This document shows, in pieces, positions 1,986-58,617 of a stretch of DNA of 64,000 nucleotides. Every line of letters begins with the position of its first letter. Positions within the stretch are counted from its first letter, which is position 1. The translations under genes were made by a program, and so were the position numbers. The DNA is from Serratia symbiotica (Periphyllus acericola) (GTDB lineage Bacteria > Pseudomonadota > Gammaproteobacteria > Enterobacterales > Enterobacteriaceae): assembly GCF_964019515.1 (NCBI RefSeq), contig NZ_OZ026452.1, positions 62,001 to 126,000 of the forward strand, given 5' to 3'. A model generated the notes under the pieces. That model ran no database searches and was not told the DNA's origin. It saw nothing but the letters and a program-made list of their open reading frames with translations.

Positions 1986-3040
1986 GGCGTTGTTGAATAA
2001 ATCGAACATTTGGCCGGGACGAGGATTAGATCACTCTCCTTCTGTCAAAATAGCGACATTCCGTGGCCCAGCAAAAGTTCAATATCACCAACTGAAAGGC
2101 TTACAACAACGCCCTTATCGCTCGGGGTTCACTCACTTTCTCGGTGGATGAAACGGCACTTCACGCCTGGTACTGCGAGGCAAAACCTTCTCTGCGTGGT
2201 CGCCCACCACATTATTCCGATATGGCAATCACCAGCGTATTGATGCTGAAACGGATTTTCGGCCTGACACTTCGCGCCCTACAGGGCTTCTTCGATTCCA
2301 TTGTCACACTGATCAAAGTGCCGTTGAACTGCCCGGACGACACCTGCATCAGTAAGCGGGCGAAGTCCGGCCATGTCCCGTTTAAAACCCCAACGCCGGG
2401 TGAAATTGCGCACCTCGTTATCGACTCTAGCGGGCTCAACGTGTTGGGTGAAGGCGAGTGGATGGCAAAAAAATACGGTCAGGAAAAACGGCGGATCTGG
2501 CGAAAACTGCATTTGGCCGTAGATACAGAAACACATGAGGTCATCTGTACTGACCTTTCCTTGAGCAATGTCACCGATACCGAAGCCTTCCCAGGTCTCA
2601 TCAGCCAGAGGTACCGTAAAATCAAAGTCGCCTCGGCGGATCCGGCTTAGGATACGCGAGTGTGTGATGATGAGTTAAGGGGCAAGAAGCTCAAGGCGTT
2701 AATATCGCCCAGCAGCGGAGCCCGTTACTGGTCGGCAGACTATGCAGAGCGAAATCAAGCGGTGGCGAACCAGCGCGTTACCGGAGACAACACACGGCGG
2801 AAAAGTATCACAGGCTACCACCGACGTTCGATAGCGGCAACAGCGAGGTACAGAGTAAAACAGCTATGTGGTGGTCACCTGTCGCGGCGAGATTATGATG
2901 GGCAAGTTGCAGAGGCGCTGGCCATGATCTGTTCACTCAACAAGATGCCGCTCGCCGGTATGCTAGAAAGTGTACGCCTTGCCTGAAAGATGCCAATTCA
3001 CGGGACTCTTTATTCCAAATCCGATTTATTCAACAATACC
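1986..3040 (+). mobile_element. IS903-like element (IS5 family), copy A
   Basis: The left end reads GGCGTTGTTGAATAAATC, matching the 18-bp IS903 terminal repeat at all but one base. The right end is its complement with two changed bases (caacaatacc). Length is 1055 bp, identical to copy G. The 9 bases on either side differ (cttgtaacc and acatagaag), so there is no target duplication. The left flank is a transposase fragment and the right flank is the purM leader, so the site is probably a recombination joint. Confidence 0.9.
2063..2986 (+). pseudogene. IS903-like transposase, copy A
   Basis: Read from the GTG at 2063 the frame is 308 codons, giving the 307-residue length of IS903 transposase. 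A TGA replaces Trp in the N-terminal KFNITNW motif, and the family-wide TAG lies at 2648-2650 after KVASAD. The first catalytic Asp (HLVIDSSGLNV) is present. The glutamate of the Y-2-R-3-E-6-K signature is Ala (YHRRSIAATA). It is dead three times over. Confidence 0.85.
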
Positions 3041-3081
3041 ACATAGAAGGATGAAAAGCAGAACCAGCTCACAAGCCACTC

Positions 3082-3093
3082 GCAAACGTTTGC
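3082..3093. promoter_or_regulatory. PurR operator upstream of purM
   Basis: GCAAACGTTTGC is a perfect palindrome matching the core of the PurR box (consensus ANGCAANCGNTTNCNT). It lies about 90 bases before the purM start, where PurR represses purMN in E. coli. It is preserved although an IS903-like element ends only about 40 bases upstream, so purine control of purMN is probably retained. Confidence 0.8.
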
Positions 3094-3181
3094 CCGCACT
3101 GTTAGAATTGCCGCGCCTTACTTCCGGCACCAATACTGGAAGCACGATTTTCAAACTGCAAACCGCCGTGGGGATCGCGCA

Positions 3182-4222
3182 GTGACCGATAAAACCTCTC
3201 TCAGCTATAAAGACGCAGGTGTCGATATCGATGCTGGCAACACATTGGTAGACCGCATCAAAGGTGTCGTTAAACAGACCTGTCGCCCGGAAGTGATGGG
3301 TGGCCTGGGCGGGTTTGGTGCCCTGTGTGCATTGCCACAGAAATACCGCGAACCGGTGCTGGTTTCCGGTACTGATGGTGTAGGTACTAAGCTACGTCTG
3401 GCCATGGATTTGAAACGCCACGACACCATTGGCATAGATCTGGTTGCCATGTGCGTGAACGATCTGGTGGTTCAGGGCGCTGAGCCGCTGTTCTTTCTCG
3501 ATTACTATGCCACCGGCAAACTCGACGTGGACACAGCCGTCAGCGTGGTTACGGGCATCGCAGAAGGTTGCAAGCAATCTGGCTGTGCGTTGGTGGGCGG
3601 TGAAACCGCTGAAATGCCGGGTATGAACCACGGTGCAGACTATGATGTGGCTGGCTTCTGCGTAGGTGTGGTCGAGAAATCCAACATCATTGACGGCAGC
3701 TTGGTGCAGTCCGGCGATGCCCTGATCGCCCTGGGCGCTTCCGGCCCACACTCCAACGGCTACTCATTGGTGCGCAAAATCCTTGAAGTCCACAACACAG
3801 ACCCCGCTACCACCCTGCTGGCAGGCAAAACGCTGGCGGATCACCTGCTAGCCCCAACCACAATTTACGTGAAATCGGTACTGGAACTTATCGAGACAGT
3901 CGAGGTACACGCCATCGCCCACCTGACCGGTGGTGGTTTTTGGGAAAATATCCCGCGCGTGCTGCCAGCAGGCATGCACGCGGTCATCGACGAAGCCAGT
4001 TGGCAATGGCCAGCAGTCTTCCATTGGTTACAGCAGGCCGGCAACGTCAGCCACCATGATATGTATCGTACTTTCAACTGCGGTGTGGGCATGGTTATTG
4101 CCCTGCCGGAAGCTGAGGTGGAAGCCGCCCTCGCGTTGCTAAATGCAACAGGGGAAAATGCGTGGAAGATCGGTAAACTGACCGCATCGGCTAGCGAGCA
4201 ACAGGTAGTCATAAACGGATGA
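3182..4222 (+). CDS. purM: Phosphoribosylformylglycinamidine cyclo-ligase
   Basis: AIR synthetase, the fifth step of de novo purine synthesis: it closes the imidazole ring of FGAM using ATP in the cytoplasm. The 346 residues match the length of the E. coli enzyme and carry the nucleotide/substrate motifs GTDGVGTK (63-70), GGETAEMPG (139-147) and [10 protein letters not shown] (about 247). The GTG start is chosen because the N-terminus [13 protein letters not shown] then matches the E. coli protein; a PurR box lies upstream. Its stop overlaps the purN start in an ATGA, so the two are translationally coupled. No defects seen. Confidence 0.97.
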
Positions 4223-4857: not shown

Positions 4858-4946
4858 ACGCGGCAATCTGCCCCCATATTTTTTTCGCCATAAGTCGTTC
4901 CCTGAAGTTATACTTTGTACAATTTCGTGATTAAAGAGGAACACAG

Positions 4947-5358: not shown

Positions 5359-6049
5359 GGCGTTGTTGAATAAATCCAACTTTTGGCTGGGACGAGGATC
5401 AGATCACTCTCCTTCTTTCAAAATAGCGACATTCCGTGGCCCAGCAAAAGTTCAACATCACCAACTGGAAGGCTTAAAACAACGCCATTATCACTCGGGG
5501 TTTACTCACTTGCTGGGGGGATGAAACGGCACTTCACGCCTGGTACTGCGAGGCAAAACCTTCTCTGCGTGGTCGCCCACCACATTATTCCGATATGGCA
5601 ATCACCAGCGTATTGATGCTGAAACGGATTTTCGGCCTGACACTTCGCGCCCTCCAGGGCTTCGTCGACTCCATTGTCACACTGATCAAAGTGCCGTTGA
5701 ACTGCCCGGACGACACCTGCATCAGTAAGCGGGCAAAGTCCGGCCATGTCCCGTTTCCCGTTTAAAACCCCAACGCCGGGTGAAAGTGCGCACCTCGTTA
5801 TCGACTCTAGCGGGCTCAACGTGTTGGGTTAAGGGGAGTGGAAGGTAAAAAAACACGGTCAGGAAAAACGGCGGATCTGGCGAAAACTGCATTTGGCCGT
5901 AGATACAGAAACACATGAGGTCATCTGTGCTGACCTTTCTTTGAGCAATGTCACCGATACCGAAGCCTTCCCAGGTCTCATCCGTCAGAGGTACCGTAAA
6001 ATCAAAGTCGCCTCGGCGGATCGGGCTCTCGATACGCGAGTGTGTCATA
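5359..6049 (+). mobile_element. IS903-like element, copy B, right end missing
   Basis: It begins with the same GGCGTTGTTGAATAAATC end, inside speG, and runs through most of the transposase, then matches stop near 6049 where rmf-like sequence begins. About 365 bp including the right end are gone. The element therefore joins two chromosomal neighbourhoods by deletion or inversion. Confidence 0.85.
5436..6049 (+). pseudogene. IS903-like transposase, copy B
   Basis: From the GTG at 5436 the frame carries a small duplication (cccgtttcccgttt near 5750) that shifts it and a TAA in place of the GEGEW glutamate codon. Where other copies have TAG after KVASADRA, this copy has CTC (Leu) followed by DTR, so it does not descend from the amber-carrying master. 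The C-terminal catalytic region is missing. Confidence 0.8.
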
Positions 6050-6143
6050 ATGAGGGAAGGCGTGCTTCAGCATCAATATGGCCCTACCCTTCGTCGCTCT
6101 CATCCAGTGAGTGGGCAACCTGGCAGAACGCATTGGCAATAAC
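6050..6143 (+). pseudogene. rmf: Possible ribosome modulation factor remnant
   Basis: The plus frame reads ...WPYPSSL..SEWATWQNALA, which follows the C-terminal half of RMF (CPYQTL..SQWLGGWREAMA) with the Pro-Tyr, two Trp and Ala residues near the right spacing. Position and orientation agree: in E. coli rmf lies convergent to fabA with a short gap. The N-terminal half is replaced by IS copy B. RMF dimerises ribosomes in stationary phase. The match is short, so moderate confidence. Confidence 0.5.
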
Positions 6144-12944: not shown

Positions 12945-13732
12945 GGCGTTGTTGAATAAATCGAACTTTTGGCCAGGACGAGGATCAGATCACTCTCCTT
13001 CTGTCAACATAAAGTGCCGTTGAATTGCCCGGACGACACCTGCATCAGTAAGCGGGCGAAGTCCGGCCATGTCCCGTTTAAAACCCCAACGCCGGGTGAA
13101 ATTGCGCACCTCGTTATCGACTCTAGCGGGCTCAACGTGTTGGGTGAAGGGGAGTGGATGGCAAAAAAACACGGTCAGGAAAAACGGCGTATCTGGCGAA
13201 AACTGCATTTGGCCGTAGATACAGCAACACATGAGGTCATCTGTGCTGACCTTTCCTTGAGCAATGTCACCGATACCGAAGCCTTCCCAGGTCTCATCCG
13301 TCAGAGGTACCGTAAAATCAAAGTCGCCTCAGCGGATCGGGCTTAGGATACGCGAGTGTGTGATGATGAGTTAAGGGGCAAGAAGCTCAAGGCGTTAATA
13401 CCGCCCAGCAGCGGAGCCGGTTATTGGTCGGCAGACTATGCAGAGCAAAATCAAGCGGTGGTGAACTAGCGCGTTACCGGAGACAACACACGGTGGATAT
13501 GATAGGCTACCACCGACGTTCGATAGCGGCAACAGCGAGGTACAGAGTAAAGCAGCTATTTGTTGGTCACCTGTCGCTGCGAGATTATGATGGGCAAGTT
13601 GCAGAGGCGCTGGCCATGATATGTTCACTAAACAAGATGCCGCTCGCCGGTATGCCAGAAAGTGTACGCCTTGCCTGAAAGATGCCCATTCACGGGACTC
13701 TTTATTCCAAATCCGATTTATTCAACAACGCC
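12945..13732 (+). mobile_element. IS903-like element, copy C, internally deleted
   Basis: Both ends are intact (GGCGTTGTTGAATAAATC and its complement). The element is 788 bp because about 270 bp of the 5' transposase region are deleted at 13015. The flanking 9-mers (gatgcagat, taaaaaaac) differ. Confidence 0.9.
13013..13678 (+). pseudogene. IS903-like transposase, copy C
   Basis: The N-terminal third is deleted. The rest carries the shared TAG at 13344-13346, a second TAG (gtgaactagcg, near 13467), a small deletion near 13497 and the Glu-to-Ala change (YHRRSIAATA). Copy D carries the same second TAG and deletion, so C and D are sister copies. Confidence 0.85.
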
Positions 13733-18966: not shown

Positions 18967-20017
18967 GGCGTTTTTGAATAAATCGGATTTGGAATAAAGA
19001 GTCCCCTGAATGGGCATCTTTCAGGCAAGGCGTACACTTTCTGGCATACCGGCGAGCGGCATCTTGTTTAGTGAACATATCATGGCCAGCGCCTCTGCAA
19101 CTTGCCCATCATAATCTCGCAGCGACAGGTGACCAACAAATAGCTGCTTTACTCTGTACCTCGCTGTTGCCGCTATCGAACGTCGGTGGTAGCCTATCAT
19201 ATCCACCGTGTGTTGTCTCCGGTAACGCGCTAGTTCACCACCGCTTGATTTTGCTCTGCATAGTCTGCCGACCAATAACCGGCTCCGCTGCTGGGCGGTA
19301 TTAACGCCTTGAGCTTCTTGCCCCTTAACTCATCATCACACACTCGCGTATCCTAAGCCCGATCCGCTGAGGCGACTTTGATTTTACGGTACCTCTGACG
19401 GATGAGACCTGGGAAGGCTGCGGTATCGGTGACATTGCTCAAGGAAAGGTCAGCACAGATGACCTCATGTGTTGCTGTATCTACGGCCAAATGCAGTTTT
19501 CGCCAGATACGCCGTTTTTCCTGACCGTGTTTTTTTACCTTACACTCGTCTTCACCCAACACGTTGAGCCCGTTAGAGTCGATAACGAGGTGCGCAATTT
19601 CACCCAGCGTTGGGGTTTTAAACGGGACATGGCCGGACTTTGCCCGCTTACTGATGCAGGTGTCGTCCGGGCAGTTCAACGGTACTTTAATCAGTGTGAC
19701 AATGGAGTCGACGAAGCCCTGGAGGGCGCGAAGTGTCAGGCCGAAAATCCGTTTCAGCATCAATACGCTGGTGATTGCCATATCAGAATAATGTGGTGGG
19801 CGACCACGCAGAGAAGGTTTTGCCTCTTAGTACCAGGCGTGAAGTGCCGTTTCATCCCCCCAGCAAGTGAGTGAATCCCGAGTGATAAGGGCGTTTTTGT
19901 AAGCCTTCCAGTTGGTGATGTTGAACTTTTGCTGGGCCACGGAATGTCGCTATGTTGACAGAAGGAGAGTAATCTGATCCTCGTCCCGGCAAAAAGTTCG
20001 ATTTATTCAACAACGCC
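18967..20017 (-). mobile_element. IS903-like element, copy D, reversed
   Basis: Full-length (1051 bp) copy in the opposite orientation to all others. One end reads GGCGTTTTTGAATAAATC (one base changed), the other is canonical. Flanking 9-mers (aagctggct, aagaatagg) differ. An inverted copy can support inversion of the intervening chromosome by recombination with copies A-C or E-H. Confidence 0.9.
19021..19940 (-). pseudogene. IS903-like transposase, copy D
   Basis: From the GTG at 19940 (minus) the frame keeps HLVIDSNGLNV (first Asp) and stops at the shared TAG (complement of 19353-19355). The C-terminal part has the same extra TAG and small deletion as copy C and the Glu-to-Ala change. Confidence 0.85.
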
Positions 20018-26131: not shown

Positions 26132-27346
26132 TTAATGATGTGCCCACTCGATGCTGTTGATATCCACGCCCTGTTTGAACATCTCCCACAAAGGGGAAAG
26201 GTCGCGCAGGCGGCAAATGGATTTACGCACCAGTTGAATGGTGTAATCGATCTCTTCTTGCGTAGTGAAGCGCCCCAGGGATAAACGGATCGAACTGTGC
26301 GCCAATTCATCATTCATGCCCAGCGCGCGCAACACGTAGGACGGCTCCAGGCTGGCGGAGGTACAGGCAGAGCCGGAGGACAAAGCCAGATCTTTCAGCG
26401 CCATGATCAGCGACTCACCTTCAACGTAATTGAAACTGACGTTAAGGATATTCGGTGCACCCTGTTCTAGATCGCTGTTTAAATACACTTCTTCCATATC
26501 TTTAACGCCGTTCCACAGGCGATCGCGAAGCCAGCTTAGGCGCGCCATTTCCGTCGCCATCTCTTCTTTGGCAATACGGTAGGCTTCACCCAGGCCGACG
26601 ATCTGGTGCACCGGCAGGGTGCCGGAACGCATGCCGCGCTCATGACCACCGCCGTGGATTTGGGCTTCGATGCGGATACGCGGCTTGCGGCGCACATACA
26701 AAACACCAATGCCTTTCGGGCCGTAAATTTTATGGCCGGAGAACGACATCAGATCAACTTTCAGCTTGCTCAGATCAATAGGCAACTTACCCACGCTCTG
26801 TGTGGCGTCAACGTGGTAAATAATGCCGCGCTCCCGGCACATTTCGCCAATTTTTTCAATATGTTGTACCACGCCGATTTCGTTGTTCACATGCATGATA
26901 GAAACCAGAATGGTGTCGTCACGCATCGCTGCTTCGAGAGCGGGCAGGTCGATGATGCCATTGCTCTGTGGTGCCAGGTAGGTCACCTCAAAACCTTCGC
27001 GCTCGAGCTGGCGACAGCTGTCCAACACGGCTTTATGTTCGGTTTTGCTGGTAATGATGTGCTTGCCTTTTTTCTGGTAGAAATGAGCCGCACCTTTAAT
27101 CGCCAGGTTATCGGATTCCGTCGCCCCTGAAGTGAATACGATTTCGCGTGGGTCTGCCCCCACCAATTCAGCAATGTGATTACGGGCGATATCCACGGCT
27201 TCTTCGGCCTGCCAACCGAAACGGTGAGAACGGGAGGCCGGATTACCGAAAGTGCCATCCAGGGTCAAAAATTGCATTATCTTCTCAGCAACGCGCGGGT
27301 CTACCGGCGTCGTTGCTGAGTAATCCAGATAAATCGGTAATTTCAT
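26132..27346 (-). CDS. iscS: Cysteine desulfurase IscS
   Basis: PLP enzyme converting cysteine to alanine and protein-bound persulfide for Fe-S clusters and tRNA thiolation. The start at 27346 gives [19 protein letters not shown] and 404 residues, as in E. coli; upstream in-frame codons are leader. The PLP lysine is in [12 protein letters not shown] (206) and the persulfide Cys in [14 protein letters not shown] (328). Intact. Confidence 0.97.
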
Positions 27347-27411
27347 TGCGCTTGTGCTCCCTACATCACTTCCAAAACTAAAGAATATCGCCAGCTGCTT
27401 ATGCGCGCAGA

Positions 27412-27894
27412 TTAACGTCGATAACTTCTTGTGGATGACCGTTTGTCTATGCAACGCGTATCGTTGTTCTGACGATCCGCCACTATCAGTACTTCCTGGT
27501 TATTAACTAGTTCTGCCAACGTAATATTGTTCAAGAATTCGCTGATGCGCTCGCTCAGATCGCGCCACAGGGTATGCGTCAGGCAGCGTTCCCCCCCTTG
27601 ACAACCGTCTTTACCTTGGCAGCGGGTGGCATCTACCGATTCATCAACAGCAGTGATAACAGTACCAACTGCGATGTCACTCATGTCTTTACCAAGTAGA
27701 TACCCCCCACCCGGACCGCGCACACTGGCCACCAGGCCATGCTTGCGCAGACGAGAGAATAATTGTTCCAGATAAGAGAGAGAAATACCCTGGCGCTCGG
27801 AAATATCCGCCAAAGGCACATGCCCTTCCTGCGAGTGCAATGCTACGTCAAGCATAGCGGTTACCGCATAACGGCCTTTAGATGTCAGTCTCAT
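27412..27894 (-). CDS. iscR: Fe-S cluster regulator IscR, altered C-terminus
   Basis: Rrf2-family regulator that, with a [2Fe-2S] cluster, represses the isc operon. The winged-helix N-terminus ([50 protein letters not shown]) and the ligands in [16 protein letters not shown] are intact. After [17 protein letters not shown] a one-base shift near 27440 replaces the family tail; the expected [12 protein letters not shown] ending (to 27399) is in another frame. The tail lies outside the DNA and cluster sites, so function is probably kept. Length 160 versus 162. Confidence 0.93.
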
Positions 27895-30250: not shown

Positions 30251-31236
30251 GGCGTTGTTGAGTAAATCGAACTTTTGGCCGGCATGCGGATCAGATCACT
30301 CTCCTTCTGTCAAAATAGCGACATGCCGTGCCCAGCAAAAGTTCAACATCACCAACTGGAAGGCTTACAACAACACCCTTATCACTCGGGGTTTACTCAC
30401 TTTCTCGGTGGATGAAACGGCACTTCACGCCTGGTACTGCGAGGCAAAACCTTCTCTGCGTGGTCGCCCACCACATTATTCCGATATGGCAATCACCAGC
30501 GTATTGATGCTGAAACGGATTTTCGGCCTGACACTTCGCGCCCTCCAGGGCTTCGTCGACTCCATTGTCACACTGATCAAAGTGCCGTTGAACTGCCCGG
30601 ACGACACCTGCATCAGTAAGCGGGCGAAGTCCGGCCATGTCCCGTTTAAAACACCAACGCCAGGTGAAATTGCGCACCTCGTTATCGACTCTAGCGGGCT
30701 CAACGTGTTGGGTGAAGGGGAGTGGATGGCAAAAAAACATGGTCAGGAAAAACGGCGGATCTGGCGAAAACTGCATTTGGCCGTAGATACAGAAACACAT
30801 GAGGTCATCTGTGCTGACCTTTCCTTGAGCAATGTCACCGATATAGAAGCCTTCCCAGGTCTCATCCGTCAGAGGTACCGTAAAATCAAAGTCGCCTCGG
30901 CGGATCGGGCTTAGGATACGCGAGTGTGTGATGATGAGTTAAGGGGCAAGAAGCTCAAGGCGTTAATACCGCCCAGCAGCGGAGCCCGTTATTGGTCGGC
31001 AGACTATGCAGAGCGAAATCAATCGGTGGTGAACCAGCGCATTACCGGAGACAACACACGGTGGAAAAGTATCACAGGCTACCACCGACGTTCGATAGCG
31101 GCAACAGCGAGGTACAGAGTAAATCTGTGCATTAAACAAGATGCCGCTCGCCGGTATGCCAGAAAGTGTACGCCTTGCCTGAAAGATGCCCATTTAGGGG
31201 ACTCTTTATTCCAAATCCGATTTATTCAACAAAGCC
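30251..31236 (+). mobile_element. IS903-like element, copy E, short internal deletion
   Basis: Both ends present (GGCGTTGTTGAGTAAATC with one change; right end GGCTTTGTTGAATAAATC in complement). Length 986 bp: about 69 bp are missing near 31125, between the C-terminal catalytic region and the stop. Flanking 9-mers (accgcatga, ccgctctat) differ. It separates the accessory fragment from an IS630 remnant. Confidence 0.9.
30328..31182 (+). pseudogene. IS903-like transposase, copy E
   Basis: One G is missing at the start codon region (gtgcccag instead of gtggcccag), shared with copy H. Shared TAG at 30912-30914, Glu-to-Ala in the YREK signature, and loss of the GGHLSLRDYDGQV segment. Confidence 0.85.
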
Positions 31237-31675
31237 CCGCTCTATGCCACACAATACCGGCTCTCGGCAACCAGCGCCGAAGTGAGCCAGGATGTAACGT
31301 CGAGTTAAATAATTTATTAATTTCAATCGTTAATATCTCAGCATTCCACCGAGAACGCAGATAGACAAAGTCCTGTGGAGAACGCTGAACGAGCAAATCA
31401 AGCATCTTCAACATCGCCTCCGTGGGCCATTTTCGGAGGCGTCCAGGTGAAAGGCTTGCCAATCCTTCATAGCCGCCCAATGTGAACAAATTAACCCATC
31501 GTCCGACAGAGGAGCGGGCGGCACATAAGGTTTTACCTAGGTAAGTCAGCGTGTTGCCACGGTGTAACATCAACATGGTGATAAGGCGTCTGGCATAATT
31601 TTTATCTGGTTTTTTCTGGATAATTTTTTGCATCTGACGTCGTTCATGTCGGGGTATGGGTGCTATGATCGGCAT
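31237..31675 (-). pseudogene. IS630-family transposase, N-terminal fragment
   Basis: The minus strand encodes MPIIAPIPRHERRQMQKII followed by ARRLITMLMLHRGNTL, ARSSVGRWVNLF (helix-turn-helix) and LRSRWNAEILTIEINKLF, the DNA-binding half of IS630-type transposases. It is cut at 31236 by copy E; the DDE catalytic half is gone. About 146 of roughly 340 residues remain. Confidence 0.8.
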
Positions 31676-31842
31676 TACTCAGTTCGGTTGTGAGGGTTTA
31701 TGATATTTGGCGATTGATGAGATCGCTCAAACCGGATTGAGTTCCTTCAGTGATCTACTATTTAGCGCAGGTATTTAGGGTAGTGTGGAACTTTTAGCAA
31801 CCTGTGTACCCGTTTTCAGGTAGTCTCAATCAGGCAATGATT

Positions 31843-32485: not shown

Positions 32486-34414
32486 ATGAGCTATCAGGTT
32501 CTTGCCCGTAAGTGGCGTCCTCAAACGTTTTCAGATGTTGTCGGACAAGAACATGTCCTGACTGCACTGGCTAACGGCCTTTCGCTGGGGAGAATTCATC
32601 ATGCCTATTTGTTCTCAGGCACGCGTGGCGTGGGTAAGACCACTATTGCGCGCCTGCTGGCTAAAGGGCTGAATTGTGAAGCTGGCATCACTGCCACGCC
32701 GTGCGGTCAATGCACTAACTGCCGTGAGATTGAGCAGGGGCGTTTTTTCGATCTGATCGAGATCGACGCCGCGTCCAGAACCAAAGTGGAGGATACCCGT
32801 GATCTGCTGGATAACGCCCAGTACGCGCCAGCCCGTGGCCGCTTCAAAGTTTACCTGATCGACGAAGTACACATGCTCTCACGCCACAGTTTTAACGCCT
32901 TGTTGAAAACGCTGGAAGAGCCGCCTGCGCACGTCAAGTTCCTGCTGGCCACCACCGATCCGCAGAAATTACCGGTCACTATTCTTTCCCGCTGCTTACA
33001 GTTCCATCTCAAGGTGCTGGATGTCGAACAGATCCGCAATCAGCTACAAAGGGTTCTAATTGCGGAGCAAATCACCAGCGATACCCGTGCGTTACAATTG
33101 TTGGCGCGCGCTGCTGATGGCAGTATGCGCGATGCGCTCAGCCTAACAGACCAGGCGATCGCTGTGGGTCAGGGGCAGGTTACTGCTGCCACCGTCAACC
33201 AAATGCTCGGTACGCTTGATGACAAACAGCCATTGGCGATCCTAGAAGCGCTGGCCAGCGCTGACGGTGAGAAGGTGATGGCGCAGGTTGCGCAGTCTGC
33301 AGCGCGAGGTGTGGACTGGGAAAGCCTGCTGGTGGAGACGCTAGCACTATTGCACCGCATTGCAATGGTGCAATTGCTGCCTGCGATGTTTGATAACCAG
33401 TACGCTGCCCTTGAACAGCGGTTACGTGAGCTGGCACGCACCTTGCCGCCCGCAGACGTGCAACTTTATTACCAGACACTGCTGGTGGGGCGTAAAGAGC
33501 TGGCCTACGCGCCAGATCGCCGTATGGGGGTTGAAATGACCCTGCTGCGTGCGCTAGCGTTCCATCCCAAAGCGCTAATCGCTGAGCTGCAAAGCGAGCC
33601 CGTGCAGATAACTCAGCCAATGCAAGCGCCACAATCTCAGGATGTGCCACCGCCATTAGGCCAAGCTGCTGTACCGCAAAATCACCAACAGCCGAATTTA
33701 CCGGATGCCACCACCCAGTTGTTAAAAGCACGTAGTCAACTGCGGCAGCAGGGAGCATCCACAGCAAAAAAGCATGAACCTACGGCGTTAGGAAGAGCGC
33801 AGTCGGCAAGCTCAGCGCTGGAGCGATTGGCTTCTGTGACTGAGCGCAGCCAGCAGCGTCAGGCAGAAAAAATCGTGCCGGAAAAAACAGTCAAGCCAGA
33901 AGCCTACCGCTGGCGTGCTTCAGGAGAGCCGGAGGTAGCGCCGACGGTGCTGAGGACGCCCAATGCGCTACGCACGGCGCTGGAGCATGAGAAAACTCCG
34001 GAAATGTCGGCCAAGCTGGTGGTGGAGTCGCTTGAGCGTGATACCTGGGCGGCGGAAATTGCCAAACTGAAGCTGCCAAAGTTAGTGCAGCAGTTGACGT
34101 TGAATGCTTTTAAGCAGCAACAGGAAGCGGGCAATATTTGTCTCCACCTTCGGTCTGCGCAATGTCACCTGAATTCGTCCTCGGCGCAGAAGACACTGGC
34201 TGACGCGCTCAGCGAGCTATATGGCCGCCCGGTCGAACTGAGCGTGGTGTTAGATGATAATTCGGCGGAACGGACTCCGCTGGAATGGCGGCAAGCCATT
34301 TATGAAGAAAAACTGGCGCAGGTGCGCCAGTCCATCGTTGCGGATACCCATATTCAGACGCTGCGCCGCTTCTTTGACGCGGAACTGGATGAAGACAGTA
34401 TTCGCCCTATTTAA
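32486..34414 (+). CDS. dnaX: DNA polymerase III tau/gamma subunit
   Basis: Clamp-loader ATPase (gamma) and replisome organiser (tau). The 642 residues show Walker A GTRGVGKTTIARLL (45-58), the zinc Cys of LNC...TPCGQCTNC, Walker B IDEVHMLS, and sensor SRCLQFHL. A programmed -1 frameshift site at codons 427-429 would yield a gamma form ending K-K-A-stop at about 430 residues, against 431 in E. coli. The linker after it is Gln/Ala-rich and the C-terminal tau domain (LTLNAFKQ...VELSVVLDD) is complete. Confidence 0.96.
   Translation: MSYQVLARKWRPQTFSDVVGQEHVLTALANGLSLGRIHHAYLFSGTRGVGKTTIARLLAKGLNCEAGITATPCGQCTNCREIEQGRFFDLIEIDAASRTKVEDTRDLLDNAQYAPARGRFKVYLIDEVHMLSRHSFNALLKTLEEPPAHVKFLLATTDPQKLPVTILSRCLQFHLKVLDVEQIRNQLQRVLIAEQITSDTRALQLLARAADGSMRDALSLTDQAIAVGQGQVTAATVNQMLGTLDDKQPLAILEALASADGEKVMAQVAQSAARGVDWESLLVETLALLHRIAMVQLLPAMFDNQYAALEQRLRELARTLPPADVQLYYQTLLVGRKELAYAPDRRMGVEMTLLRALAFHPKALIAELQSEPVQITQPMQAPQSQDVPPPLGQAAVPQNHQQPNLPDATTQLLKARSQLRQQGASTAKKHEPTALGRAQSASSALERLASVTERSQQRQAEKIVPEKTVKPEAYRWRASGEPEVAPTVLRTPNALRTALEHEKTPEMSAKLVVESLERDTWAAEIAKLKLPKLVQQLTLNAFKQQQEAGNICLHLRSAQCHLNSSSAQKTLADALSELYGRPVELSVVLDDNSAERTPLEWRQAIYEEKLAQVRQSIVADTHIQTLRRFFDAELDEDSIRPI
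33750..33777 (+). promoter_or_regulatory. dnaX programmed -1 ribosomal frameshift signal
   Basis: The slippery heptamer A-AAA-AAG (33766-33772) is in the correct phase. The stimulatory Shine-Dalgarno-like AGGGAG (33750-33755) lies 10 bases upstream, as in E. coli. After slippage the -1 frame reads GCA then TGA (33775-33777). A downstream stem is weak here (CCTA/TAGG). Confidence 0.9.
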
Positions 34415-41718: not shown

Positions 41719-42681
41719 ATGAAGCAAGAGAAACACGGCGTATTGCTGGTAAACCTGGGGACGCCAGATGCGCCAACCTCATCGGCGGTAAAATGTTACC
41801 TAAAAGAATTCCTCAGTGATGGCCGCGTAGTTAACACCTCACCGTTGCTTTGGTGGGTTATCCTTAACGGCGCGATCTTACCGTGGCGATCGCCGCGCGT
41901 CGCCAAGTTGTATCAGTCAATCTGGATGGAAGAAGGTTCTCCGCTATTGGTCTACAGCCGTCGTCAACAGCGGGCGCTGGCCGAGCGTATACCGAATATT
42001 CCCGTCGAGTTGGGCATGAGCTATGGTTCGCCAAGCTTGGCGGAAGCGATCAGTAAGCTGCTGGCTCAAGACATAACTAACCTGGTGGTGCTGCCGCTAT
42101 ACCCGCAATACTCCTGCTCGACCAGTGCAGCGGTATGGGACGGTGTGGCGCGCGTCCTTAAGGGCTATTGCTGTTTACCATCGATCAGGTTTATCCGCGA
42201 TTACGCCACACACCCAGCCTATATCTTTGCGCTACAGCAAAGCGTTGAACACTCATTGGCTGAACATGGTCAGCCGGATCGCCTGATACTTTCGTTCCAC
42301 GGTATCCCCAAGCGCTATGCACGTCTGGGGGATGATTACCCGCAGAGCTGTGAAGATACGCAGCGTGCGCTGACTGCCACGCTGCCGTTATCGCCGGAAC
42401 GGGTGATGATGACCTACCAATCACGCTTTGGTTGTGAGCCGTGGCTGACGCCATATACTGACGAAACGCTGCAAAGCCTTCCGGCGCAGGGCGTGAAACA
42501 TATTCAATTGATCTGCCCCGGTTTCTCGGCGGACTGTTTGGAAACGTTGGAGGAGATCAAAGAGCAAAACCGTGAGATATTCCTCAAGGCTGGCGGCGAG
42601 AAGTTTGAGTATATTTCTGCACTGAATGACGAACCGGCACATATTGATATGATTCAGCAATTGGTGATGGAGTGTACTTAA
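41719..42681 (+). CDS. hemH: Ferrochelatase
   Basis: Inserts Fe2+ into protoporphyrin IX, the last step of haem synthesis. The ATG at 41719 gives [19 protein letters not shown] and 320 residues, as in E. coli. The metal ligand/catalytic His is in [10 protein letters not shown] (about 194) and the Glu in [15 protein letters not shown] (about 264). In E. coli it follows adk directly; here the dead glycerate cluster lies between them. Intact. Confidence 0.96.
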
Positions 42682-42683
42682 AG

Positions 42684-42832
42684 CCTATACCAGTTGGTGT
42701 ACATTGTTGCAGTCTGTTTGGATGAGAACAGCGCGCAATCCTCGCAGCATACATGGCGTATGTGATGGTTGTGGTCACTGCCCAGGGCCAAAATGGCAAA
42801 TAAAATAGCCTTTATGGGATAGATTCTTAGTC
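42684..42832. repeat. ~150-bp interspersed repeat, copy 1
   Basis: Begins CCTATACCAGTTGGTGTAC and ends CAGGGCCAAAATGGCAAATAAAATAG...GGGATAGATTCTTA. The first and last segments align with the copy at 51383. The outer bases CCTAT(A/C)CC and GGGATAG are inverted, so the unit has short terminal inverted repeats. Confidence 0.7.
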
Positions 42833-43162
42833 ATCATTACGTCAGGTGTTGGGTCTATCACTACATCAGGCAGGAATACGCTAATATTTTAATTTCTGGC
42901 TGCTAACGGCCCAATGATCATTTATCGCGCTGGGTTGTACTAAAAGTAAAAGATCCCGCAAGGCGGATCTTACTTATCATCAATATCGATTAGGCCGTGC
43001 CTGGCAATGGCCCATGAGTGCCGTTGGTGGTTGTTTGAGCGTGCAGCAAGGCGCATGTGATGAGGTTGGGTGGCCTAATAAACAGCGTGTCACATAGGGG
43101 TACCTGCACCTTCCGCCTTGATTATCGGCTTTTGGGTCTGCGACGCCGCCACGTTAGATGAC
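42833..43162. other. Gene-free stretch between hemH and ybaL remnants
   Basis: No coding homology. In E. coli aes and gsk lie here; I see no trace of either. A hairpin at 42947-42974 is listed separately. Confidence 0.4.
42947..42974 (-). terminator. Hairpin, possible minus-strand terminator
   Basis: AAGATCC and GGATCTT form a 7-bp stem around CGCAAGGC; on the minus strand it is followed by TTTACTTTTAG. It could have ended the ybaL transcript. Confidence 0.5.
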
Positions 43163-44643
43163 CTAGATCGGGCAATTGCCCACTTTCTCTTCTTCGCTCA
43201 GCCTATCCAATCTGAGGATTTTGAGCATGCTGTTGGCGATCTCCCGCTCGCCCATCACCACCTGATTGTCACCGCGATCAAAAATATAAGCCACTTAATC
43301 GTCGTAATGTGCACGGGTGATAATCTCAATGTTTGGCCGTCTATGACGTGCCGAGGCGAAGATCTCTCCAGCCTCATAGCCATTCGTGATGGTTAGCAGC
43401 AGCCAGAGAGCGCAGTCGAAGCGTGCCAGATCCATCACCTCAGGATTGGGGCAGCATTGCCATATACCGCCTTGATGCCCTGTTCACGCAGCGCCTCAAC
43501 GCGCGGGCGCGAGTTTTCAACCACGACCAGCGGAATGCCTGCCTCGGCCAGTTTGCTGCCTAGCAGGCTACTGACGCGGCCATAGCCGACCACCAGCGAT
43601 CTCGACCGGGATTTGTTTCTCTTCTTCCAGGCTCTGTTCTTCTATGAACTCGGTTTTGGCCAGATAGTGCTCCAGCAGAGTGAACAACAGCGGGTTGAGC
43701 ATAATCGACAGGATAGCACCGTCCAGAACCAAGTTGCGCCCATGCTCCGACATCATCCCCAGCGTAATGCCTAGACCGGCCAGGATAAAAGCGAACTCAC
43801 CGATCTGTGCCAGGCTGGTGGAGATAGTTAGTGCAGTGCATTTGGAGTGGCCGAACAGCCTCACCATTAGGAATGCGGCGGCAGATTTGCTGAACACAAT
43901 GATCGCCAGCGTTGCCAATACGGCCAACGGCTCGTTGAACAGGATCATCGGGTCAAACAGCATGCCGACCGAGACGAAGAACAGCACTGCGAATGCATCA
44001 TGCAGCGGCAGCGTATCGTGGGCCGCACGATGGCTCAGCTCCGATTCGTTCAATACCATGCCAGCGAAAAAAGCACCTAACGCAAAGGAAACATCGAACA
44101 GCTTCACCGAACCGTAGGCAATGCCAAGCGCCAGTGACAAGTACTGCCAGGGTGAGTAGCTCACGCGAACGGTGCTGGCGGTTTTTGACAATATCCAAGG
44201 CACTAGACGGAGACCGACCACGATCATCAAGGCAATAAAAGCGATGACTTTGCCAATGGTGATCGCCAGTTCGATCAGCAGTTAATTGCTGTGGGGGTTG
44301 CCGTTATCCATCATGTTGCCAAAAGCTGGCAACAGTATCAACGTTAGCACCATTGCTAAGTCCCCGACGATCAACCAGCCAATGGCAAGTTGCCCGTGCT
44401 GGCTGTCTATTAACTGCCGTTCTTCCAGTGCGCGCAATAACACCACGGTGCTGGCGGTGGACAGGCAGAGACCGAGTACCAGGCTGGAGAGTAAATCCTA
44501 ACCAAGCAGCGTAGACAGACCGATGCCTAGCAGCGTTGCAACCGCAATCTATGCCATGGCACCGGGGATGGCGATAGATTTTACAACGAGGAGGTCTTTA
44601 AGTGAAAAATGCAGACCCACACCGAACATCAACAGGATCACAC
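43163..44643 (-). pseudogene. ybaL: K+/H+ antiporter-family transporter YbaL, broken
   Basis: The central part (LFDVSFALGAFFAGMVLNESELSHRAAHDTLPLHDAFAVLFFVSVGMLFDP, to AKTEFIEEQSLEEEKQIPVEI) is the CPA2 exchanger domain of YbaL. The N-terminal part upstream has stops and the first residues are removed by IS copy F. The C-terminal TrkA-N domain (GYGRVSSLLGSKL..., EIITRAHYDD-stop-VAYIFDRG) is out of frame and contains a TAA. In E. coli ybaL lies near hemH, so position is conserved. Confidence 0.88.
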
Positions 44644-45294
44644 CGATTGGAAGGCTTACAACAAGGCTCTTATTACTCGGGGTTCACTCATTTTCTGGGG
44701 GGATGAAACGGCACTTCACGCCTGGTACTGCGAGGCAAAACCTTCTCTGCGTGGTCGCCCACCACATTATTCCGATATGGCAATCACCAGCGTATTGATG
44801 CTGAAACGGATTTTAGGCCTGACACTTCGCGCCATCCAGGGCTTTGTCGACTCCATTGTCACACTGATCAAAGTGCCGTTGAACTGCCCGGACGACACCT
44901 GCATCAGTAAGCGGGCGAAGTCCGGCCATGTCCCGTTTAAAACACCAACGCCAGGTGAAATTGCGCACCTCGTTACCGTTATTGGTCGGCAGACTATGCA
45001 GACCGAAATCAAGCGGTGGCGAACCAGCTCTTTACCGGAGACAACACATGGTGGAAAAGTATGACAGGCTACCACCGACGTTCGATAGCGGAAACAGCGA
45101 GGTACAGAGTAAAATAGCTATTTGGTGGTCAACTGTCGTTGCGAGATTATGATGCGCAAGTTGCAGATACGATGACAATGATCTGTGCACTAAATAAGAT
45201 GACGCTAGCCGGTATGCCAGAAAGTGTACGCGTTACCTGAAAGATGCCTATTCAGGGGACTCTTTATTCCAAATCCGATTTATTCAACAAAGCC
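44644..45294 (+). mobile_element. IS903-like element, copy F, left-truncated and internally deleted
   Basis: The left end is missing; the match starts at tggaaggcttac inside ybaL, where host sequence carries a short similar stretch (aacatcaac), suggesting recombination. The right end is intact (GGCTTTGTTGAATAAATC in complement). A central deletion joins HLV to VIGRQT, removing about 280 bp. Confidence 0.85.
44650..45240 (+). pseudogene. IS903-like transposase, copy F (Glu retained)
   Basis: Starts in the NW-KAYN region, then AWYCEAKPSLRGRPPHYSDMAITSVLMLKR, and loses the first catalytic Asp by the central deletion. The C-terminal part reads RRSIAETARYRVK: the YREK glutamate is GAA here, unlike the Ala (GCA) of copies A, C, D, E, G and H. 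It has diverged more than other copies elsewhere too. Confidence 0.82.
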
Positions 45295-45400
45295 ACTGTA
45301 CGTTCATGCAACTCTGGTGGATAACGGTTTGTTGATTTTGATGTCATTTCGGGTCTCCTTTCACTCAGAATTTAGTCTCCAATAAACCCGGGGCGGTTGA
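45295..45400 (-). mobile_element. IS3-family end with start of orfA
   Basis: On the minus strand TCAACCGCCCCGGGTTTATT (45381-45400) looks like an IS3-type terminal repeat, followed by a GGAG ribosome site and ATG at 45347 encoding MTSKSTNRYPPELHERTV, the N-terminus of IS3-family OrfA. Copy F truncates it at 45294. Confidence 0.7.
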
Positions 45401-46858: not shown

Positions 46859-47913
46859 GGCGTTGTTGAATAAATCGAACATTTGGCTGGCACGAGGATC
46901 AGATCACTCTCCTTCTGTCAAAATAGCGACATTCCGTGGCCCAGCAAAAGTTCAACATCACCAACTGGAAGGCTTACAACAACGCCCTTATCACTCGGGG
47001 TTTACTCACTTTCTCGGTGGATGAAACGGCACTTCACGCCTGGTACTGCGAGGCAAAACCTTCTCTGCGTGGTCGCCGACAACATTATTCCGATATGGCA
47101 ATTACCAGCGTATTGATGCTGAAACAGATTTTCGGCCTGACACTTCGCGCCCTCCAGGGCTTCGTCGACTCCATTGTCACACTGATCAAAGTGCCGTTGA
47201 ATTGCCCGGACGACACCTGCATCAGTAAGCGGGCGAAGTCCGGCCATGTCCCGTTTAAAACCCCAACGCCGGGTGAAATTGCGCACCTCGTTATCGACTC
47301 TAGCGGGCTCAACGTGTTGGGTGAAGGGGAGTGGATGGCAAAAAAACATGGTCAGGAAAAACGGCGGATCTGGCGAAAACTGGATTTTGCCGTAGATACA
47401 GAAACACATGAGGTCATCTGTGCTGACCTTTCCTTGAGCAATGTCACCGATACCGAAGCCTTCCCAGGTCTCATCCGCCAGAGGTACCGTAAAATCAAAG
47501 TCGCCTCGGCGGATTGGGCTTAGGATACGCGAGTGTGTGATGATGAGTTAAGGGGCAAGAAGCTCAAGGCGTTAATACCGCCCAGCAGCGGAGCCCGTTA
47601 TTGGTCGGCAGACTATGCAGAGCGAAATCAAGCGGTGGTGCACCAGCGCGTTACCGGAGACAACACACGGTGGAAAAGTATCACAGGCTACCACCGACGT
47701 TCGATAGCGGCAACAGCGAGGTATAGAGTAAAACAGCTATTTGGTGGTCACCTGTCGCTGCGAGATTATGATGGGCAAGTTGCAGAGGCGCTGGCCATGA
47801 TCTGTGCATTAAACAAGATGACGCTCGCCGGTATGCCAGAAAGTGTACGCCTTGCCTGAAAGATGCCCATTCACGTGACTCTTTATTCCAAATCCGATTT
47901 ATTTAACAAAGCC
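46859..47913 (+). mobile_element. IS903-like element, copy G, full length
   Basis: 1055 bp with ends GGCGTTGTTGAATAAATC and (complement) GGCTTTGTTAAATAAATC. Flanking 9-mers gtggtacca and cctgggcag differ. Its right end cuts a copy of the 150-bp repeat. With copy H it is the best preserved copy and is the reference for the family in this window. Confidence 0.92.
46936..47859 (+). pseudogene. IS903-like transposase, copy G (reference copy)
   Basis: GTG start at 46936 gives AQQKFNITNWKAYNNALITRG. The 308-codon frame has the IS903 length of 307 residues and a single interruption, the TAG at 47521-47523, where IS903 has GAY-DTR (here DWA-stop-DTR). First Asp in HLVIDSSGLNV is present. The Y-2-R-3-E-6-K signature reads YHRRSIAATARYRVK, Ala for Glu. 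Downstream of the TAG the frame stays open to the end. Confidence 0.88.
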
Positions 47914-54704: not shown

Positions 54705-54766
54705 AACCAACCCCTCTCTACTTTGCAGCGCCATTGACCAAGATGCCCCTTATGCGGAAACATTTA

Positions 54767-55325: not shown

Positions 55326-56379
55326 GGCGTTGTTGAATAAATCGAACATTTGGCCGGCACGCGGATCCGATCACTCTCCTTCTGTCAAAATAGCGACATT
55401 CCGTGCCCAGCAAAAGTTCAACATCGCCAACTGGAAGGCTTACAACAACGCCCTTACCACTCGGGGTTTACTCACTTGCTGGGGGGATGAAACGGCACTT
55501 CACGCCTGGTACTGCGAGGCAAAACCTTCTCTGCGTGTTCGCCCACCACATTATTCCGATATGGCAATCACCAGCGTATTGATGCTGAAACGGATTTTCG
55601 GCCTGACACTTCGCACCCTCCAGGGCTTCATCGACTCCAGTGTCACACTGATCAAAGTGCCGTTGAATTGCCCGGACGACACCTGCATCAGTAAGCGGGC
55701 GAAGTCCGGCCATGTCCCGTTTAAAACCCCAACGCCGGGTGAAATTGCGCACCTCGTTATCGACTCTAGCGGGCTCAACGTGTTGGGTGAAGGCGAGTGG
55801 ATGGTAAAAAAACACGGTCAGGAAAAACGGCGGATCTGGCGAAAACTGCATTTGGCCGTAGATACAGAAACACATGAGGTCATCTGTGCTGACCTTTCCT
55901 TGAGCAATGTCACCGATACCGCAGCCTTCCCAGGTCTCATCCGCCAGAGGTACCGTAAAATCAAAGTCGCCTCGGCGGATCGGGCTTAGGATACGCGAGT
56001 GTGTGATGATGAGTTAAGGGGCAAGAAGCTCAAGGCGTTAATACCGCCCAGCAGCGGAGCCCGTTATTGGTCGGCAGACTATGCAGAGCGAAATCAAGCG
56101 GTGGTGCACCAGCGCGTTACCGGAGACAACACACGGTGGAAAAGTATCACAGGCTACCACCGACGTTCGATAGCGGCAACAGCGAGGTACAGAGTAAAAC
56201 AGCTATTTGGTGGTCACCTGTCGCTGCGAGATTATGATGGGCAAGTTGCAGAGGCGCTGGCCATAATCTGTGCATTAAACAAGATGCCGCTCGCCGGTAT
56301 GCCAGAAAGTGTACGCCTTGCCTGAAAGATGCCCATTCACGGGACTCTTTATTCCAAATCCGATTTATTCAACAAAGCC
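55326..56379 (+). mobile_element. IS903-like element, copy H, full length
   Basis: 1054 bp with intact ends, left GGCGTTGTTGAATAAATC, right GGCTTTGTTGAATAAATC in complement. Flanking 9-mers (ccctgcctt, actgttagg) differ. An IS2 fragment adjoins its right side. Confidence 0.92.
55403..56325 (+). pseudogene. IS903-like transposase, copy H
   Basis: Missing one G at the start region like copy E, so it may be read from an upstream in-frame codon. Shared TAG at 55987-55989, C-terminal frame open, Glu-to-Ala in YHRRSIAATA. Very close to copy G elsewhere. Confidence 0.86.
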
Positions 56380-56383
56380 ACTG

Positions 56384-56571
56384 TTAGGGCAAGAAGCCCG
56401 TCGGCGTAAAACGCCTCAGGAAAAGATCGCCATTATTCAGCAGTCGATAGAGCCGGGAATGTCGGTATCCCATGTGGCCCGCCTGTATGGCATTCAGCCC
56501 AGTCTGCTGTTCAAGTGGAAAAAGCAGTACCAGGAAGGCAGTCTCGCGGCATTAGCTGCCGGTGAAATTGA
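56384..56571 (+). pseudogene. IS2-type OrfA fragment
   Basis: Encodes [19 protein letters not shown], then [19 protein letters not shown] and [21 protein letters not shown], the DNA-binding OrfA (InsC) of IS2-type IS3-family elements. The first residues are cut by copy H and the leucine zipper part is absent. An orfB piece of the same type is at 46078, about 10 kb away. Confidence 0.82.
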
Positions 56572-56609
56572 AACCGGGTATTTATATCCGAGGATTACTT
56601 ACCGATTAG

Positions 56610-56698
56610 GTCGTGCCCCACGCGGGCACGTGGATTGAAACCAATCAGCGATACCAATACACCAATGGCTCCATGCATGGCCGTACATGGTTTGAAAC
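56610..56698 (+). CRISPR. Type I-C-like CRISPR repeat relic
   Basis: The 32 bases 56610-56641 begin GTCGTGCCCCACGC and end CGTGGATTGAAAC, with a 7-bp stem CGTGCCC/GGGCACG and loop CACGC. This is the length, loop and 3' end of type I-C repeats (compare GTCGCCCCCC...TGGATTGAAAC), with paired stem changes. A degenerate second unit ends ACATGGTTTGAAAC at 56698, giving one possible short spacer of about 25-35 bases. No cas gene is in the window, so any array is inactive. Confidence 0.6.
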
Positions 56699-56784
56699 CC
56701 AAACACGGGCGGTTAGGGGGTATTACGGGGATGCCAGTTACCTTAATTAACTGGCTGGCATTGGATTTTGAATGTCAGAGCGCG

Positions 56785-58287
56785 TTAGTCCAGTTTAGGG
56801 TGCTGATCGACTAACGTCTGTTTTTTATTTTCTAAATCGGCAATTTGCGCATTGATGTCCTCGACCTTTTGTTCGATGTTGTCATAGGTTTCCTGGAGCA
56901 GTTCTTTGGCTTCCGTGCGATCAGAGGCGGCTGGGGGGGCACCGCGTAGCGGTTTGTTGGCAGTTTCTTTCATAAATAGACCGGTAATCAGGCCGATCAC
57001 TGCCACTACCATCAAATAGTAGGCCGGCATGTAGAGGTTGCCAGTGGATTCTACTAGCCAGGCTACCGCCGTTGGGGTAGCGCCAGCAACCAAGATTGAA
57101 ATGTTGAAGGAAATTGCCAGCGCGCTGTAGCGAATATTCGTTGGGAACATTGCTGGCAATATGGATGCCATCACGCCTGTAAAGCAGTTCAGCAGCACCG
57201 CCAGCACCAATAAACCGACAAAAATTAAGCCAATCACGCTGCTGTTAATCAAAATAAAGCACGGAATAGACAACGCTACCACACCAATGCTGCCCCCGAT
57301 AATAAATGGCTTACGGCCAATGCGATCGCTGGTCAGGCCGATCACTGGTTGCACGAACAGCATGCCAATCATGATGGCAATGATGATCAATATTCCATGA
57401 TCTTCCGAGTAGTTCAGATTATGCGAAAGATAGCTTGGCATATAGGTCAGCAACATGTAATAGGTCACATTGGTGGAAATCACGATACCTACGCACACCA
57501 GCAGACTTTTCCAATGTTTGGCTGCAATTTCTGTGAACGAGATCCTCGGCGGATTTTCGATAGCGTTGCGATCATCTTTCTCCATCTTGTCAACATGTTG
57601 CTGGAAAGCAGGGGTTTCTTCCAGTGCATGGCGCAAGTAGAGACCAATAATGCCCAGCGGTGCCGCTATGAAAAACGGAATACGCCAGCCCCAGTCGAGG
57701 AAGTGGGCTTCGCCAACGATGCTAGAAATCAGCACCACGACGCCGGCACCCAGCACGAAACCGGCGATAGAGCCGAAATCAAGCCAACTACCCATAAATC
57801 CACGTTTGCGATCGGGTGAATATTCTGCCACGAAGATCGCCGCCCCGGAGTATTCTCCGCCGACGGAGAAACCCTGAGCAAGCTTGGCCAGCAACAGCAG
57901 GATTGGTGCCCAGATGCCGATAGCGGCATAAGACGGGATCAGTCCGATGCAGAAGGTGCTCACAGCCATAATGATAATGGTGGTGGACAGCACTTTCTGA
58001 CGGCCAAATTTATCGCCCATGGCACCAAAGAAGATACCGCCGAGTGGACGGACTAAGAAAGGCACCGAGAAGGTCGCCAGCGCAGCAATGATCTGTATGC
58101 CAGGAGATGCGCCGGGAAAGAAGACTTGTCCAAGAGCATAGGCTACGAAGCCGTATACGCCGAAGTCGAACCACTCCATCGCATTGCCCAATGCGGCGGC
58201 GGTAATCGCCTTCTTCAGCTTACTGTCGTCGATGATAGTTATGTCATTAATGTGCATCGGCTTATGACGTTTTTTTCTTAACTTCAT
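56785..58287 (-). CDS. proP: Osmoprotectant/proton symporter ProP
   Basis: Major-facilitator importer of proline, glycine betaine and ectoine, activated by osmotic stress. The ATG at 58287, preceded by AAGGGAAG, gives MKLRKKRHKPMHINDITIIDD and 500 residues, equal to E. coli; an upstream in-frame start is less likely. Motifs include GNAMEWFDFGVYGFVA, GDKFGRQKVL, QGFSVGGEYSGAA and AEYSPDRKRGF. The C-terminal heptad coiled coil (IEQKVEDINAQIADLENKK, about 466-485), which tunes the osmotic threshold, is intact. Confidence 0.96.
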   Translation of the reverse strand: MKLRKKRHKPMHINDITIIDDSKLKKAITAAALGNAMEWFDFGVYGFVAYALGQVFFPGASPGIQIIAALATFSVPFLVRPLGGIFFGAMGDKFGRQKVLSTTIIIMAVSTFCIGLIPSYAAIGIWAPILLLLAKLAQGFSVGGEYSGAAIFVAEYSPDRKRGFMGSWLDFGSIAGFVLGAGVVVLISSIVGEAHFLDWGWRIPFFIAAPLGIIGLYLRHALEETPAFQQHVDKMEKDDRNAIENPPRISFTEIAAKHWKSLLVCVGIVISTNVTYYMLLTYMPSYLSHNLNYSEDHGILIIIAIMIGMLFVQPVIGLTSDRIGRKPFIIGGSIGVVALSIPCFILINSSVIGLIFVGLLVLAVLLNCFTGVMASILPAMFPTNIRYSALAISFNISILVAGATPTAVAWLVESTGNLYMPAYYLMVVAVIGLITGLFMKETANKPLRGAPPAASDRTEAKELLQETYDNIEQKVEDINAQIADLENKKQTLVDQHPKLD

Positions 58288-58564
58288 ATTATCTTCCCTT
58301 AATGAAACATTAGTTGTTCGTGAATTCGCAATCCCCATCCATTTGTTTATGTTGAACCATTAGTTTGGCTAAACATATTGCTGTTCCAGGTGGCCAGCCT
58401 CCACTATCTTCATGAAATATGAACCGTAAATGCAAGCCAGCTTTAAGCGATATCACGCTATTTAGGGGACTAATTTTTTTACATTTATAGCTTAACGTTA
58501 TATCTTGCGGCGATCAAATTTGGCCTTTTTTCTTATAAATTTGCATGGAAATAGATTGACGGTA

Positions 58565-58617
58565 AGATGCCCATTCAGGGGACTCTTTATTCCAAATCTG
58601 ATTTATTCAACAAAGCC
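58565..58617 (+). mobile_element. Solo right end of an IS903-like element, copy I
   Basis: From gatgcccattcaggggactc to the terminal repeat (complement GGCTTTGTTGAATAAATC) only 53 bp remain. It separates the proP side from sbcB, another block joint. Confidence 0.8.

Follow-up and report, generated by a model that had tools for sequence, protein, structure and literature searches.

The 64-kb window analysed here (C1:62001-126000, the whole stretch of DNA presented above, from a single-contig Serratia genome of 1,897,958 bases that, judged by its relatives, is probably an aphid symbiont of the Serratia symbiotica type) holds eight copies of an insertion sequence (IS) of the IS5 family that resembles IS903. 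Genome-wide the element is a large dead family of at least 172 copies, and 137 of the 143 copies in which both sites could be scored share two inactivating changes: an in-frame TAG at codon 196 of the transposase gene and GCA (Ala) in place of GAA (Glu, the catalytic glutamate) at codon 259. The copies arose by transposition, have exchanged segments with one another and accumulate private changes neutrally. Our preferred explanation, to which we give a probability of about 0.5, is that a pool dominated by dead elements was amplified by transposase supplied in trans, was reshuffled by recombination and then stopped multiplying.

An inactive family of the IS903 group

The copies were tallied from sequence patterns around codons 196 and 259 (156 matches each); fragments lacking both sites and divergent fragments were left out, so 172 is a lower bound. 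The aligned copies amount to 164,151 bases, or 8.6% of the genome. Against the NF033579 profile, the N-terminal 195 amino acids of copy G from the window score 184.5 bits (cut-off 140), which identifies an IS5/IS903-type transposase, and the protein of the best copies is 70% identical to that of an intact relative. DNA identity to three IS903-type relatives is 71.5-73%. The nearest relative within the plasmid collection (91.6%) is carried by a Serratia symbiotica plasmid, the host aphid being Periphyllus lyropictus. The record of plasmid pSsPl-LLN resembles a near-dimer, with two halves of very similar gene order and protein accessions in common.

The commonest left end, GGCGTTGTTGAATAAATC, is present in 94 of 143 two-ended copies and the commonest right end, GATTTATTCAACAAAGCC, in 66 of them (the two-ended set was later revised to 137). 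These imperfect terminal repeats of about 18 bp match what we take to be the IS903 motif, and the 9-bp target duplications that we presume to be typical of IS903 are found as well. The element is thus like IS903 in its transposase family, end sequences and 9-bp duplications, and unlike it in that the catalytic Glu is replaced and the frame is stopped in most copies. Following the numbering that we assume for the IS903 DDE triad (121/193/259, with the YREK signature), the two catalytic Asp residues are kept, codon 121 in 159 of 161 copies and codon 193 in 151 of 156. The triad itself is not intact, as codon 259 reads GCA in 150 of 157 scorable copies (six GAA, one GTA). Codon 196, also scorable in 157 copies, is TAG in 150, TAC in six and CTC in one. 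We conclude that the family is an inactive descendant of the IS903 group and not an active member of it. Where both codons could be scored, the copies that depart from TAG+GCA comprise two TAC+GCA, two TAG+GAA, one TAG+GTA and one TAC+GAA, and the two TAG+GAA copies are a pair with an identical deletion and 322 identical right-flank bases compared. These genome-wide counts rule out chance as the source of the shared pattern. They confirm the earlier observation, made from the window by a sequence-only reading, and show that the dead version has become numerous.

That reading also held that the ancestor was intact at both sites, which the outgroups support. Among 12 distinct sister-symbiont copies (out of the 22 used for strict polarity), the first site encodes Tyr in eight, Phe in three and His in one, and the second is GAA in all 12; the plasmid copy and the three IS903-type elements have Tyr and GAA. 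A lone 269-bp fragment in another Serratia genome (G020, L215) carries GCA at the second site and is ancestral at the other common-variant sites that it covers, for which an independent change is the simplest reading. The sister reduced genome G008 has its own large family of the IS903-like element (177 matches), of which the copies sampled are strongly decayed and have a consensus near the inferred ancestral state. The other Serratia genomes compared number 29, with 26 at 4.9-5.9 Mb and three smaller (1.5, 2.5 and 3.6 Mb).

An intact copy with Glu and without the TAG, for which the sequence-only reading had proposed a search, was found neither among the 35 copies with gapless reading frames, none of which is stop-free (the shared TAG is the sole stop in 14), nor as a full-length stop-free copy among the protein matches listed (150 of 290 candidates scored). 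The candidate at C1:375 kb, with TAC and GAA, turned out to be a truncated remnant. Next to a truncated copy at C1:~375.15 kb, two left ends of the IS903-like element form a palindrome of ~115 bp.

Copies in the window

Positions are those of the window.

Copy A, 1986-3041, + strand: full length; TAG at codon 196, GCA at codon 259; extra TGA upstream of the TAG
Copy B, 5359-6060, + strand: 3' truncated; codon 196 CTC (Leu); codon 259 lost
Copy C, 12945-13728, + strand: internal deletion; TAG and GCA
Copy D, 18971-20017, - strand: full length with small deletions; TAG and GCA; further stops
Copy E, 30251-31232, + strand: internal deletion near the 3' end; 1-nt deletion at the start codon; TAG and GCA
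Copy F, 44641-45296, + strand: internal deletion; codon 196 lost; GAA (Glu) kept at codon 259
Copy G, 46859-47913, + strand: full length; TAG and GCA
Copy H, 55326-56381, + strand: full length; 1-nt deletion at the start codon; TAG and GCA
Right-end fragment of the same element, 58556-58613, + strand

All eight copies described from the window alone are present. The same TAG and the same GAA-to-GCA change recur in A, C, D, E, G and H as described, and so do Leu in B and Glu in F. As B lacks the second site and F the first, each exception informs on one site only. The C-terminal frame past the TAG is open for 108 amino acids in A (2660-2986), G (47533-47859) and H (55999-56325), again as described. 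The upstream TGA of A, the further stops of D and the start-codon deletions of E and H had gone unmentioned. Copy F is in the derived state at only 10 of its 22 scorable common-variant sites.

Transposition and exchange between copies

Ten of the 137 two-ended copies have their own target duplication, matching at 8-9 of 9 bases, for a permutation expectation of 0.25; these matching duplications show that copies arose by transposition. Nine of the ten are TAG+GCA, and the tenth, which lacks the first codon, has GCA. Another 16 distinct 9-mers are split between copies, occurring in the left flank of one and the right flank of a different one; the shifted control averages 0.28, with a maximum of 2. 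They include a reciprocal pair between C1:1781 kb and C1:700 kb. The 9 bp to the right of copy F likewise match those to the left of a copy at C1:~45 kb. Splitting of this kind shows later exchange between copies by crossing-over.

Linkage within the element is short. For variants at 20-80% frequency, mean r2 falls from 0.57 within 10 bp (5 pairs) to 0.040 for pairs 10-50 bp apart (7 pairs) and to 0.010 for those more than 400 bp apart (69 pairs); a separate linkage analysis used 169 sites with a minor count of at least 6. Trees built from the left and right halves of the element have 7 of 124 splits in common, two of these among the outgroups. All four combinations of ancestral and derived states at the two sites occur; together with the decay of linkage and the discordant half-trees, this shows that TAG and Ala do not form a single linked haplotype. 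Movement in trans and gene conversion had been put forward as alternatives by the sequence-only reading. The two need not exclude each other: the target duplications show transposition, and their scrambling with the linkage decay shows heavy recombination between copies.

A whole-element tree of the copies, the check proposed with that reading, was built and both sites were scored on it. The first site changes five times (mean of shuffled labels 6.0) and the second three times (6.9), on a tree with support of at least 0.9 at 54 of 140 nodes. No clean answer on origins follows, because the half-trees are discordant and weak (support of at least 0.9 at 33 of 136 and 29 of 131 nodes), so that the copy tree cannot settle the number of origins. 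Element columns 154-160 have two alternative derived forms within 7 bp, in 72 and 65 of 151 copies, and the ancestral form in 5 of 151.

Private changes and the end of renewal

In 115 near-full-length copies, ordinary private changes number 13.3 per kb, with a variance-to-mean ratio of 0.95. Such a Poisson-like load would be expected if renewal of the copies stopped at about one time, and it supports a single stop time shared by all copies. The private mutations are spread along the element, at 13.5-19.2 per kb across eight bins. They include 372 synonymous changes out of 1362, for a neutral expectation of 395.7 (p 0.16), so no purifying selection is evident. Their rate in the two transversion classes described below is 2.8 per kb, a mild excess over the roughly 1.5 predicted from ordinary DNA. 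Counting singletons by occurrence also gives a mild excess of A:T>C:G (224 of 1304); the A:T>C:G excess among singletons counted by type was discounted, as recurrent G:C>A:T hits bias that count.

Twelve copies with ancestral states carry 142 changes in 7008 bp, for an expectation of 93 (p 1.6e-6). In this set the duplicate pair is treated as one copy, and copy 520542m was taken in for its ancestral states at other sites; without 520542m it has 134 changes in 6,613 bp, for 88 expected.

Spectrum of the shared variants

Strict polarity could be assigned in 963 of 1056 columns. At frequencies of at least 20%, 35 of the 40 variants are A:T>C:G or G:C>C:G transversions, and TAG and Ala are two of these 35. 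The share of the two classes follows frequency: the variants at 90% or more are nine A:T>C:G and six G:C>C:G with no other class, and the fractions are then 12 of 13 at 50-90%, 8 of 12 at 20-50% and 149 of 672 below 20%. With the cut set at about 38%, 31 of 33 variants belong to the two classes, and the TAG and the Glu-to-Ala change are among the 33. A looser rule for the ancestral state gives 35 of 41 sites. For comparison, an ordinary, mostly single-copy stretch of 13 kb (window 31.3-44.5 kb) was scored on the same branch at positions where three relatives agree, and it has 17 of 164 changes in the two classes (43 of 398 by a looser rule). Fisher tests give p = 3e-21 for the common variants against this stretch and 4e-17 against the rarer variants.

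The signature was sought elsewhere. The plasmid copy has 6 of 24 changes in the two classes, or 8 of 30 under a different rule, a modest increase that stays far from 35 of 40; the G020 fragment has 1 of 12; the 22 sister-symbiont copies have 124 of 806 site variants and 2 of 6 consensus changes. A genome-wide mutator was rejected for now on the strength of the ordinary stretch and an intact mutT frame. Nor does a general effect on repeats seem to be at work, as in a second IS family (13 aligned pieces) 3 of the 14 changes at frequencies of 50% or more are of these classes, a small sample. One fragment of that second family lies at window 31239-31778; the 12 further pieces come from the sampled part of the genome, and several copies are present in G008. 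Copying of the derived base from a neighbour was rejected too, the two being equal in 14 of 40 cases for 18 expected.

On the coding strand of the element, 18 of the 35 changes are purine to C and 17 are pyrimidine to G. A single error mode, insertion of G opposite a template purine, would yield both. We suggest, tentatively and with doubt on our own part, that the multiplying form of the element was mutated by a process unlike that of the rest of the genome, resident copies mutating normally. Among the titles and opening parts of abstracts listed in a literature search that covered mostly open papers, none describes such a spectrum for IS copies.

Weighing the explanations

The preferred explanation would run as follows. 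A small pool of elements, most of them already without the catalytic Glu and with the stop, may have multiplied by transposition, using transposase from other copies that were then intact. Crossing-over and gene conversion, probably with RecA as the agent, made the copies mosaics and parted many pairs of target duplications. Amplification then seems to have ended at about one time, and the copies to have decayed at the ordinary rate since. The shared transversions, TAG and Ala included, would stem from an episode of mutation specific to the element, at a time when the pool was small.

Several points weigh against this account. A helper transposase was not identified among the chromosome protein matches listed (150 of 290 scored) in the one-contig assembly, and IS903 transposase is Lon-sensitive and strongly cis-acting, the latter making movement in trans harder. 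Gene conversion is very active and could carry dead sites into older copies, so that near-fixation is no proof of an amplified dead founder. No matching target duplication of their own is seen in 127 of 137 two-ended copies, and for most of these no partner was found elsewhere. The poor node support of the half-trees means that part of their disagreement is weak signal. The heavier load of the ancestral copies rests on 12 copies, with copy F giving 21 of the 142 changes, and the correlation between derived fraction and load over 171 copies is weak (Spearman -0.17, p 0.02).

The main rival is gene conversion alone, with active copies already in place and the stop and the Ala spreading afterwards, as proposed for Wolbachia wBm. 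Linkage between common variants that is nearly gone beyond 10 bp, scrambled target duplications and an intact recA all agree with it, and it has the precedent cited in PMC3004938 and PMC3196728. Yet an unfavoured new variant has a takeover chance of about 1/N, and 15 derived variants stand at 90% or more. The copies that escaped the dead sites are older on average, which better fits a later wave of dead copies, and the ten copies with their own target duplications all have GCA, while the nine of them that keep the first codon all have TAG. We therefore regard conversion alone as somewhat unlikely, though a serious competitor. Another rival is a mismatch-repair filter acting during gene conversion, by which only differences giving poorly recognised mispairs (C.C, A.G and C.T) would spread and MutY would push A.G to C.G. 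The two enriched classes are indeed those with poorly recognised mispairs, the mutS frame is intact, and the A:T>C:G direction without G:C>T:A fits MutY. At 10-60 bp, moreover, variant pairs that include a transition have a mean r2 of 0.080 (12 pairs) and transversion-only pairs 0.012 (12 pairs). At 60-200 bp, however, the values are 0.020 (25) and 0.025 (39), and beyond that 0.012 and 0.012. The enrichment is also slight at 5-20% frequency (12 of 78 in the two classes), and mispair chemistry favours no direction for G:C>C:G, of which 17 are common. As these changes are directionless and common transitions recombine equally freely beyond 60 bp, we disfavour the filter and consider it unlikely.

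If the shared variants or their shuffling were an artefact of assembling or polishing 170 near-identical repeats, per-site random calls would be expected to give near-zero linkage at about 20 bp, as seen, and the transversion signature is absent from the ordinary DNA examined. Polishing blind to repeats would, however, erase the private mutations, which persist along the element with a near-ordinary spectrum. The scrambling of target duplications concerns flanking DNA and not the repeat itself, and proteins on three other short contigs show the derived residues, though these contigs may be from the same sample. An artefact is accordingly quite improbable. Hardly credible is the idea that the stop is read through, an alternative raised in the sequence-only reading, and that a useful transposase is still made with another residue as catalyst. 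It could draw on the open frame past the stop in A, G and H and on the gapless frames with TAG as their sole stop, but the other 21 of the 35 are not limited to the shared TAG, the private changes look neutral, and the even private load gives no sign of young copies.

Other features of the window

A repeat of ~155 bp at window 42675-42833 has dozens of diverged copies in the related Serratia genomes G020, G017 and G008. Rfam matches were found at 27318-27499 (- strand) for an IscS thermometer at the iscS gene, and at 33747-33811 (+ strand) for the dnaX frameshifting element.

Relation to known systems and significance

The usual explanation for abundant dead IS families is a burst and subsequent decay. 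Conversion-homogenised dead IS copies are already in print, as are IS903-type bursts in symbionts with movement in trans suggested, according to the relevant passages of PMC3004938, PMC3196728 and PMC3914690. The closest case is ISSoEn1 (IS5 family, IS903 subgroup) of Candidatus Sodalis pierantonius SOPE, for which those passages give 189 of 311 copies with intact frames and raise the possibility of gene conversion and of movement in trans (PMC3914690). The two systems are alike in an IS903-type element in an insect symbiont, with hundreds of copies in SOPE, many of them inactive, and with IS-bounded rearrangements. They differ in that no intact copy was found here and the inactivating changes are shared; the SOPE passages contain no analysis of a shared stop, linkage or spectrum. 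Wolbachia wBm, as cited in passages of PMC3004938 and PMC3196728, has nonfunctional IS copies that gene conversion keeps similar (Cordaux 2009). There too, many similar dead IS copies sit in an obligate symbiont with gene conversion invoked, and the family described here has the shared inactivating changes and the exchange between copies that mark such homogenised dead elements. Unlike in wBm as cited, the copies here are mosaics diverged by a few percent, with target duplications split between copies and a special spectrum of shared changes. Amoebophilus asiaticus is described in PMC3196728 as a symbiont whose genome of 1.88 Mb is massively loaded with IS elements and gives no evidence of recent transposition; unlike its IS families in that account, breaks are shared here between copies and recombination is strong.

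The window alone thus gave the observation and, in part, its interpretation; the scale of the family, the recombination and the spectrum of shared changes lay outside it. With about 170 copies, an apparent common stop time, measurable recombination and split target duplications, amplification, recombination and decay become separable, and the split duplications make some chromosome rearrangements traceable. The unexpected contrast in mutation type, with 35 of 40 common variants but 149 of 672 rare ones in the two classes, makes it testable whether a copying or recombining mobile element has a mutation signature of its own. If so, propagation of the element, by transposition or by copy-to-copy recombination, would be mutagenic, and the element would have killed its own transposase gene while spreading.

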